A stretch of DNA of 64,000 nt from Methylobacterium sp. (GTDB taxonomy: Bacteria; Pseudomonadota; Alphaproteobacteria; Rhizobiales; Beijerinckiaceae): NCBI GenBank assembly GCA_020253445.1, contig JADCBP010000004.1, forward strand, positions 186,001 to 250,000. Direction: 5' to 3'. Under the pieces are notes generated by a model. The model was not told the DNA's origin. It saw only the letters and a list, made by a program, of their open reading frames with translations, and did no database searches. Positions within the stretch are counted from its first letter, which is position 1. Each line of letters begins with the position of its first letter. The translations under genes and the position numbers were made by a program. Shown here in pieces: positions 26,620 through 29,006 of this stretch.

Positions 26620-27381
26620 TTACTCCAGCGCCTCCGCCAGACGCGTGAGTTGCGGCAGATCGGTCAGATCCAGTCGCAGCGGCGTCACCGAGATCCGGCC
26701 ATGCGCGAGCGCGTGCAGATCGGTGCCCTCGGCCGGGGTGATCCTGCCGCGGGCGAAGGCGATCCAGAAATACGGGTTGCCGCGCCCGTCCTGCCGCTGG
26801 TCGATATCGAGCAGCGCCTGGTTGCGCTGGCCCTGCACGGAGACTGCTATTCCCCGCATGGCCTCCGGCTTCACGGCCGGGAAATTCACGTTGATGACGA
26901 TGCCCGGCGCAATGCCTGCCGCGAGCACCTTGCGGATGACGTTCGAACCATGCGCCTCGGCGCAATCCCAGCGAAAATTCGCCCGATCCTCCGGGTTCAC
27001 GGCCTGGCTCAGCGCGATCGAGGGCACGCCGAGCAAGGTGCCTTCCATGGCGGCCGCAATGGTGCCGGAATAGGTGACATCCTCCGCCACGTTCTGCCCG
27101 CGATTGACGCCGGAGAGCACGAGATCGGGCCGACCGCCCTTCAGCACATGGCGCAAACCCATGATGACGCAATCGGTTGGCGTGCCCTTCACCGCGAAAT
27201 GCTTCGGTGAAATCTCGCGCAGGCGCAAGGGATCGTTCAGCGAGAGCGAATGCGACACGCCGGATTGATCGCTCTCCGGCGCCACGATGATCACATCATC
27301 GCTGATCTCGCGCGCGATTCTCTCCAGCACCGCGAGGCCGGGGGCATGAATGCCGTCATCATTGGTGAGGAGGATGCGCAT
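26620..27381 (-). CDS. surE: 5'/3'-nucleotidase SurE
   Basis: A 253-residue metal-dependent nucleotidase. The N-terminal [10 protein letters not shown] carries the metal-binding Asp8-Asp9. Further family blocks are SQ..VSHSLSL near 43, [12 protein letters not shown] near 88 (Ser and Asn metal ligands) and [11 protein letters not shown] near 104. Its ATG shares a base with the serS stop (TGATG), so surE is translationally coupled to serS. Confidence 0.96.
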
Positions 27382-29006
27382 CAGCCTGCTTTCTCGATTC
27401 TTGTGAGGCCACCCATATAGGGGGCGAGCACGGGCGGCACCGTGATGGAGCCGTCAGGGTTCTGGTAGTTCTCCATGACGGCAATGAGACACCGCCCCAC
27501 CGCGACGCCCGAGCCGTTGAGCGTGTGCACGAAGCGCGTTTCCTTTTCGCCGGAACGTCTGAACCTCGCACCGTCATCACCGGCAGCCGACCGACGGTCG
27601 AAGATACGACGCGCCTGGAAATCACCGCAAACCGAGCAGGAGGAAATCTCGCGATAGGTGTTCTGGCCGGGCAGCCAGACTTCCATGTCGTAGGTTTTCT
27701 GGCTCGCAAAACCCATATCGCCGGTGCAGAGCGTCATCACGCGGTAATGCAGGCCGAGCTTCTTCAGCACGGTCTCTGCGCAGGCCAGCATGCGCTCGTG
27801 CTCATCGGCCGATTTTTCCGGCGTGGTGATGGAGACGAGTTCCACCTTGCTGAACTGGTGCTGGCGCAACATGCCGCGCGTATCCCGCCCCGCCGAGCCT
27901 GCTTCCGCCCGGAAACAGGGCGTGAGCGCGGTAAAGCGCAAAGGCAGCTCCTCCTCCGACAATATTCGGCTTGGCACCAAGTTGGTGAGCGGGACTTCCG
28001 CCGTGGGGATGAGCCAGTGGGCTCCTTGGGACTCGCGGACGTAACTCGAAACTAGGGGCGCGCAATCCTCAACAGTGCTCTGAGCATAGGCTGCATAGCT
28101 GCCGGTTTGGGACAATAAGATATCAAGCTTTTCAGCTAAGTGTGGACCAGCCTCGTGAACAAATTTTCGTACTTCTGCAAACCCACTTTCCCATAGGTCA
28201 ACAGTATCTTTTGTGTTTTTGGAGAATAGTGAGATTGAACGGTTTACTCGTTCCCAAATTTCTAATTGCTTCGGATCTAATAACTCACTTACGGCCTTAA
28301 ACTGATCCTCCCGGAACTTCGGCAACTGCGCCGTTCCGAACATCGCGTCGTCCTTCACGAGGATCGGCGGGTTCACTTCCGTGTAGCCATGCTCCGTCGT
28401 GTGCAGATCGAGCATGAACTGCCCCAAAGCCCGCTCCAGCCGCGCGAGGCCCTTCTGGAGCACCACGAAACGGCTGCCGGAGAGCTTCGCGGCAGTTTCG
28501 AAATCCATCATGCCAAGGGCTTCGCCGAGTTCGACGTGATCCTTGCCGGTCTCGATGAGCTTCTCGGGAATGGGCAGTTCAGTGCCCTTAATGTCTGCGA
28601 TCTTCGGGCGCTTCTCTGCCTTGTATTCCACATTGCCGTGCTCATCCGCGCCGTCCGGCACATCCTCCTTCGGGATGTTGGGAAGGCCGGCGAGGATGTC
28701 GCGGATTTCCGCTTCCATCTTGGCGGTTTCGGCTTCCAGTTCGGCGAGACGCTCCTTGCCGCTGGCGACCTCGGCCTTCAGCGCCTCGGCCCGGGCCATG
28801 TCCTTCGCGGCCATGGCGGCGCCGATTTCCTTCGAGGCCGCATTGCGCCGCGCGAGCAGCGTTTCCTTCTCGGTGAGGCGCTGGCGGTAAGTTGCATCAA
28901 GGTCGAGAACCTTGGCGACGTCATCGTGCTCCTTCTGCTTCCTCCGCCGGAGCATCGCGTTCTTCAACGCATCAGGGTTCGCTCGAAGGGCGCGCAGATC
29001 GTGCAT
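27381..29006 (-). CDS. serS: Seryl-tRNA synthetase with a 92-residue internal insertion
   Basis: Class II synthetase charging tRNA-Ser. The 541 residues far exceed the usual 420-430. The N-terminal coiled-coil arm (about 30-105), TAEVPLTN (336-343), motif 2 [14 protein letters not shown] (365-378) and motif 3 with NGSGVAVGR are all intact. Residues 239-330 (28017-28292), between [11 protein letters not shown] and WLIPTAEV, are extra; relatives usually have about five residues there. That DNA is A+T-rich (about 41% G+C over 210 nt by hand count) with TTA, ATT, ACA and AAA codons unlike the rest. A smaller extra segment of about ten residues follows CGDFQARR. The gene heads serS-surE-pcm-nlpD. 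Confidence 0.95.

Follow-up and report, generated by a model that had tools for sequence, protein, structure and literature searches.

Aminoacyl-tRNA synthetases are textbook examples of conserved enzymes. Loci at which low-G+C alleles are swapped between conserved borders, with many alleles in existence, are familiar instead from the target-recognition domains of HsdS in type I restriction and from O-antigen and bacteriocin-type loci, and in-frame additions to alphaproteobacterial genes are familiar from the Rickettsia palindromic elements, a single repeat family found in many genes. Segmentally variable genes were introduced as genes with a variable region of at least 70 amino acids between conserved regions (Zheng, Roberts and Kasif 2004, PMC387263); its authors propose binding roles for the variable regions, and synthetases are discussed there with ProRS as the example. 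For human cytosolic SerRS, a review (PMC10817482) locates the catalytic-domain Insertion II (G254-N261) close to the active site and assigns it a negligible role in aminoacylation.

Here we analysed a window of 64,000 nucleotides (the whole stretch of DNA under study) from a genome of the genus Rhabdaerophilum, to which R. calidifontis (locus L066) also belongs, and describe an insert within its seryl-tRNA synthetase gene, serS. The features referred to throughout are these:

27381 to 29006, minus strand: serS, seryl-tRNA synthetase, 541 amino acids (PF00587, E 8e-36; PF02403, E 2e-23; TIGR00414)
28671 to 29006, minus strand: N-terminal tRNA-binding domain, residues 1-112 (PF02403)
28299 to 28388, minus strand: 90-bp 5' flank of the insert (approximately residues 207-236), where synonymous divergence is raised in other genera when the loop differs
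28017 to 28298, minus strand: hypervariable insert, K237-H330, 94 residues replacing a turn of about six, delimited by comparison with relatives
28029 to 28274, minus strand: unit of four predicted helices inside the insert (residues 245-263, 269-286, 288-300 and 304-326; AlphaFold2)
27978 to 28016, minus strand: conserved 3' border of 13 residues (331-343), with the TAE motif

The serS gene is an uninterrupted single frame of 541 codons, whose product scored 474.2 bits against TIGR00414 with the pieces joined, above the curated cut-off of 301.65; its neighbours, by the look of their sequences, are presumably tat genes and surE. The original prediction had marked residues 239-330 (28017-28292) as an extra in-frame stretch, and comparison with relatives both upheld this and widened the stretch to K237-H330 (28017-28298). 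It is bounded by a ten-residue sequence and by WLIPTAEV, and insert-free SerS relatives mostly have about six residues at this loop, for example AAGDGF. Two more small additions relative to three solved bacterial SerRS lie at 28542-28604 (about residues 135-155) and 27567-27605 (about residues 468-480). Searching with the TIGR00414 profile revealed one serS and no second copy in the window's genome, and the insert DNA likewise occurs there once. Frame and motifs are kept, as had been claimed: T335, A336, E337, R366, E368 and R505, which we take to be the class II catalytic and TAE motif residues, are unchanged in 44 of 44 aligned SerS proteins. Since this serS is the only copy, the enzyme carrying the insert is presumably essential and working.

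The foreign-looking composition noted at the outset was borne out. The G+C content is 45.7% in 28017-28292 and 41.0% over the 210 nt from 28083 to 28292, reproducing an earlier hand count of about 41%, and GC3 is 0.415 in the insert versus 0.794 in the remaining serS. When G+C was scanned in 240-bp segments, the insert was the sole place in the 64-kb window below 50%, and of the 241 ORFs scanned across 400 kb of this genome serS had the deepest internal A+T dip (-0.206; runner-up -0.133). The third deepest (-0.127, near codon 375) belongs to an ORF of 1152 residues (G000:C13:56075-59530), which by its start we take to be DnaE. In an AlphaFold2 model built from a 44-row alignment (mean pLDDT 81), four helices make up the insert, at pLDDT 57-69; a second model, of a 51-residue insert type described below (12 rows, mean pLDDT 51.6), was set aside. 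On the first model the insert is possibly a folded helical domain, at low to modest confidence.

Relatives were searched in 61 genomes (58 with a match) and in a 193-genome sample of the class, the loop survey covering Alphaproteobacteria. Within Rhabdaerophilum the loop was readable in 16 of 17 genomes, the window's included, and all 16 carried an insert; the remaining genome (83% complete) yielded no serS. One 51-residue type with host-like GC3 accounted for seven of the 16, and the other nine inserts, the window's among them, were mutually unrelated and 51-95 residues long, the best match of the window's insert among congeners having an E value of 0.12. Because the same site is filled by mutually unrelated sequences in many species, the insert is to be regarded as a recurrently replaced allele and not as a single graft, and a single origin was rejected. 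The proposal of a grafted new domain therefore survives in its foreign composition and in the absence of the sequence from relatives (congeners at E 0.12 or above), but not as a single event with a set accessory job. Aligning the relatives' SerS proteins, as had been recommended, found the site occupied in every readable congener, but by mutually unrelated sequences; and an insert of normal composition in most relatives, which had been thought to speak against the proposal, was found in a way in seven congeners, but as the different, host-like 51-residue insert.

Across the class, inserts are patchy, frequent in a few genera and absent in most. In Methylobacterium (with Methylorubrum) serS was matched in 109 of 111 genomes, and 38 of the 90 loci read had loops of at least 20 residues; among the short-loop loci, 30, the best-matching ones, had exactly six residues. 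Nineteen further Methylobacterium loci comprised 16 matched straight through, two cut by contig ends and one (G061, the same as L079) with a 90-residue insert. All 42 Hyphomonas genomes gave a serS match; 30 loci were fetched and 29 read (4 of 38 loci went unread in the Hyphomonas reading), of which 12 had a six-residue loop and 17 had inserts of 29-94 residues in 14 families, with GC3 below that of the remaining gene in 17 of 17. In the class sample the match ran straight through the loop in 150 of 193 genomes, among the matches listed. The other 43 comprised one without a match, the window's genome and G001, and 40 that were re-examined, eight of them split at the loop; about ten of the 193 class genomes therefore have long inserts.

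One 51-residue insert family spans several class lineages (L009-L014, L016, L047, L081-L083, L086, L087, L093, L095, L098, L101 and L113, joined by eye by L345). It has the pattern RxELLxxALxH...LVxxxLExAPxxED and mostly host-like GC3, and is perhaps a stable allele of long standing. L060 (G051, C28:4121-5413) is a second SerS-like gene, only distantly related (about 41% identity in the catalytic part), in a genome whose normal serS is insert-bearing too.

Searches for a source covered phages and plasmids, in which the window's insert had no match at E 1, and the PDB and congeners, in which only chance-level matches were obtained; no donor of an exchanged cassette was found, and homologous inserts surpassed the remaining gene in similarity in just 10 of 236 pairs. 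Recent transfer of an insert between species is weakly seen for L082/L083. Neither repeats nor silent cassettes were present in the window's genome, and a Rickettsia palindromic element or other repeat was rejected for want of further copies in the genome. An intein has Cys or Ser as its first residue and His-Asn at its end. The insert begins KAVSE and finishes QGAH, which confirms the earlier statement of no intein-like ends; by these ends it is not an intein. It matched no Pfam family at E 0.01, and with its flanks it gave Pfam matches of E 0.019-0.23, all below cut-offs and no intein among them. A phage SerRS as donor was also rejected, as the loops read among SerRS relatives in 62 viral loci were short. 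That scan comprised 63 sequences (the 62 and L237) and gave a loop string from 58 and none from five, L253 probably being a wrong match.

Several observations on SerRS genes of phages and plasmids were made in passing. Large Brevundimonas phages carry a seryl-tRNA synthetase gene (seven records matched; hits H33, H34, H39 and H40), one of them being L237 (ON529857.1, Brevundimonas phage Kikimora, Dolichocephalovirinae), whose SerRS loop is short. The 62 viral loci, L238-L299, are IMG/VR contigs with SerRS relatives, several longer than 200 kb and none with a long insert among those read; some short IMG/VR contigs with SerRS may be host DNA. In PLSDB, hits H21-H25 are E. coli plasmids annotated with serS, three of the five listed at only 73-88 kb, with 12 Escherichia records in all.

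Turnover at the loop was followed on a SerS tree built without the insert from 15 Rhabdaerophilum genes (L005, which is cut, was left out). Eight species with eight different inserts group at 92/99 support, and the tree has eight insert changes in all. The 51-residue-type genes fall in one clade (five) and on unresolved near-basal branches (two), so this type may be ancestral. In closely related genes elsewhere, the sister genes L022 and L139 share 96.5 and 97.7% identity in the two gene parts, yet the loop has 64 residues in one and 6 in the other; for L091 and L231, at 94% identity, the inserts are unrelated and 43 and 66 residues long. Where an insert is inherited, its dN/dS is 0 to 0.27 for the 51-residue insert (21 Rhabdaerophilum pairs), 0.14 for L078/L231 and L076/L179 and 0.37 for L079/L089; among pairs of the short type in Methylobacterium it reaches 0.48, and a single Bauldia pair has 0.68. 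All usable values were below 1 (some dS values failed or saturated, and two pairs were without a value), and on these ratios the inherited inserts are under purifying selection.

Most of the genes compared with serS did not share this variability. A G+C dip of more than 0.12 over 150 bp occurred at 41% of 81 serS loci, versus 1% of 75 for surE and 0% of 70 for pcm, these being the names we assume for two ORF families near serS. Among 20 other ORF families near serS, several of which are spurious frames, dips occurred in 0-13% for 19 and in 53% for an opposite-strand frame seen in 15 loci. ThrS in the 42 Hyphomonas genomes showed no break, with one match each of 1677-1734 nt except for one gene cut by a contig end.

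As judged from the sequences, the polymorphic site is the tip of the beta-hairpin leading into the SerRS TAE motif in several alphaproteobacterial lineages. Alleles the size of a domain, a foreign composition, conserved borders, constraint on each allele and turnover between sisters are together the reason why we favour, tentatively, the interpretation that the insert represents an allele of a hypervariable cassette whose diversity is maintained by selection, most probably because it would let SerRS elude some agent binding at this hairpin. By analogy, the pattern resembles what loci under frequency-dependent selection show. An agent such as a phage protein, a bacteriocin or another toxin might recognise SerRS at this hairpin, which is exposed and adjoins the active site; a domain that is bulky, acidic and rare in its surroundings could then deny the agent its site while serylation stays intact, and rare alleles would be favoured and common ones replaced. 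To our knowledge no SerRS-directed agent acting at the hairpin has been described, and none appeared among the papers listed in an open-access literature search. Phages and viral contigs with their own SerRS fit a contest over the enzyme, and other explanations for them exist. That SerRS is an immune-type polymorphic locus, at which alphaproteobacteria draw whole hairpin domains from a pool of hundreds of alleles and so evade molecules of phages or competitors that seize the enzyme, we put forward as a conceivable but rather doubtful generalisation.

Nearly as likely as escape, though itself open to considerable doubt, is a merely tolerant loop without an adaptive role, in which any small soluble acidic helical unit is accepted and foreign DNA, brought in occasionally by recombination, is kept as harmless. 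Purifying selection on inherited inserts would then reflect the need to fold and not a function. Human Insertion II lies immediately ahead of the segment matched, in the alignment, by residues 329 and following of the window's SerS and therefore occupies about the same loop, and its negligible part in aminoacylation (PMC10817482) is what a tolerant loop would lead one to expect. The same holds for the alternation of short loops and inserts among close species, and the acidic, cysteine-poor make-up detailed below could be a filter for harmlessness near the tRNA. Tolerance accounts less well for a turnover far above that of surE, pcm, most neighbouring genes and ThrS; loops of other proteins should be tolerant too, yet none of the 240 other ORFs in 400 kb dips as deep.

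The DNA next to the loop bears on how alleles arise. Close pairs of genes, each gene used once per set, were divided into 23 with different loops (16 plus the Hyphomonas additions; mostly Methylobacterium and Hyphomonas) and 36 with the same loop. Within 30 codons of the insert on its 5' side, the synonymous difference per codon was 0.27-0.50 in different-loop pairs, versus 0.14-0.20 beyond; in same-loop pairs it was 0.17-0.28 near and 0.12-0.18 beyond. The near-minus-far excess had a mean of 0.230 and was positive in 22 of 23 different-loop pairs, versus 0.060 and 25 of 36 in same-loop pairs (p 1.3e-5, a rough value, as are the others here, for pairs that share no gene within a set yet are not fully independent), so the same-loop pairs tend in this direction as well; in two of the 23, L209/L217 and L213/L227, inspection by eye suggests that the loops are related. 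Past codon 30 the excess was back at background, and pair by pair (20 different-loop pairs) it often began near the HGY codons, at about codon -30. On the 3' side the two sets were alike overall (p 0.45).

These differences would most simply be caused by replacement of the 5' flank and the loop with DNA of another serS. New alleles probably come in when the serS genes of two species recombine, a process in which LDLHTxEHGY upstream and a 12-residue sequence downstream would serve as short homology arms, and about 90 bp of the donor gene together with its insert would replace the resident loop. In Rhabdaerophilum, whose species are further apart, the flank showed no excess divergence, and the route taken by the window's gene is therefore inferred from the other genera. 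The idea that the Rhabdaerophilum 5' flank is unusually alike across species was rejected, same-insert pairs being equally so.

Localised A+T-biased hypermutation in place, for example through error-prone repair or a diversity-generating process focused on the loop and without import, would also leave an altered stretch that is bounded and one-sided. It could account as well for the lowered GC3 of the 5' 90 bp relative to the distal gene (-0.145 with an A+T-rich insert, n=44, versus -0.024 without, n=63; p 1e-6) and for the homologous inserts that differ more than the core in 226 of 236 pairs. We nevertheless regard this explanation as improbable: inherited inserts are under purifying selection, the flank differences are mostly synonymous, though amino-acid changes are raised there too, and by mutation in place it would be hard to obtain 64 to 96 residues versus 6 between genes that are 2 to 9% apart.

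Grouping of all loci by blastp at E 1e-3 assigned 99 distinct inserts (at least 28 residues) to 61 families, with 52 singletons and five pairs. A more sensitive comparison revealed weak links between a few families, such as one at E 0.004 that joins L112 with the 51-residue type, so that 61 is an upper figure for independent origins; the Chao formula applied to the family counts gave about 270 families unseen. Against Pfam, PHROGs, NCBIfam and PADLOC, 55 insert representatives (54 of 56, the short L125 and L213 being dropped, plus L005) had nothing better than E 0.003, the best library matches each being confined to one representative and none being in PHROGs, and alignment of the 55 gave zero conserved columns. 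GC3 was lower in the insert than in the remaining gene in 66 of 71 cases. All of 98 distinct inserts were open, versus a base-shuffled expectation of about 15 of 98, a weak result because the reading of loops required an open frame.

The unrelated inserts have a make-up in common. With one type per family, 53 of 64 were net negative, ten neutral and one positive, and only three cysteines occurred in 3,923 residues, in three of the 64 types (the window's insert has one). Hydropathy-matched segments of the window's own proteome, a background from one proteome for inserts from many, were 42% negative and 46% positive, and 31-35% had a cysteine. Such a composition speaks against binding of nucleic acid and suggests a requirement common to all inserts, perhaps that of not disturbing the tRNA-binding face. 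An RNA-binding accessory domain, as first suggested, is unlikely because only one of the 64 types is net positive.

An accessory domain whose partner, be it protein, RNA or DNA, is particular to the lineage, one per species and comparable to eukaryotic synthetase appendages, would suit the predicted helical domain and the purifying selection, and both human insertions take part in DNA binding (PMC10817482). Eight unrelated domains in eight grouped species would call for eight partners, and the net charge speaks against nucleic acid, so we give this explanation little credence. A selfish in-frame element of the Rickettsia palindromic element kind, or a mini-intein, would match an in-frame insertion in a presumably essential gene but is highly improbable for a sequence that is single copy by DNA and protein, lacks intein-like ends, has no column conserved across the 55 inserts and is found in one gene, always at the same site.

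Unrelated domains beside the active site in close relatives suggest selection on SerRS beyond serylation, at its surface. If escape is true, SerRS would be a target that has gone unrecognised in attacks by phages or rival bacteria, and the natural allele set, in which one pair is about 97% identical outside the loop, could be used to hunt for a SerRS-directed agent. The exchange would also exemplify how foreign coding DNA may come into a housekeeping gene along a bounded route and with the frame kept. Should the loop prove merely tolerant, it would remain a clearly defined position in nature at which a synthetase can gain domains.

Compared with described systems, the serS insert resembles the segmentally variable genes in being a domain-size variable stretch between conserved ones (PMC387263); the 94 residues in the window exceed the length of 70 given there, and many inserts of other species are shorter. 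It differs from what that paper describes in being confined to one catalytic-domain hairpin, in varying between sister species and in having a putative exchange tract, and the string 'seryl' is absent from the main text of PMC387263. Human Insertion II, like the serS insert, precedes the strand leading to the TxE motif, but it has eight residues, occurs only in higher eukaryotes and is not described as hypervariable in the sections of PMC10817482 concerned with it. Full-text searches of an open-access library showed no report of a hypervariable SerRS cassette; most subscription journals are outside that scope, and absence is accordingly unproven. HsdS, O-antigen and bacteriocin-type loci are non-essential defence or surface genes, whereas serS is a single-copy synthetase and, unlike them, has no A+T-rich partner beside it in the window. 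With the Rickettsia palindromic elements the serS inserts share their in-frame position in genes of Alphaproteobacteria; there one repeat family enters many genes, whereas here one gene receives many unrelated sequences.
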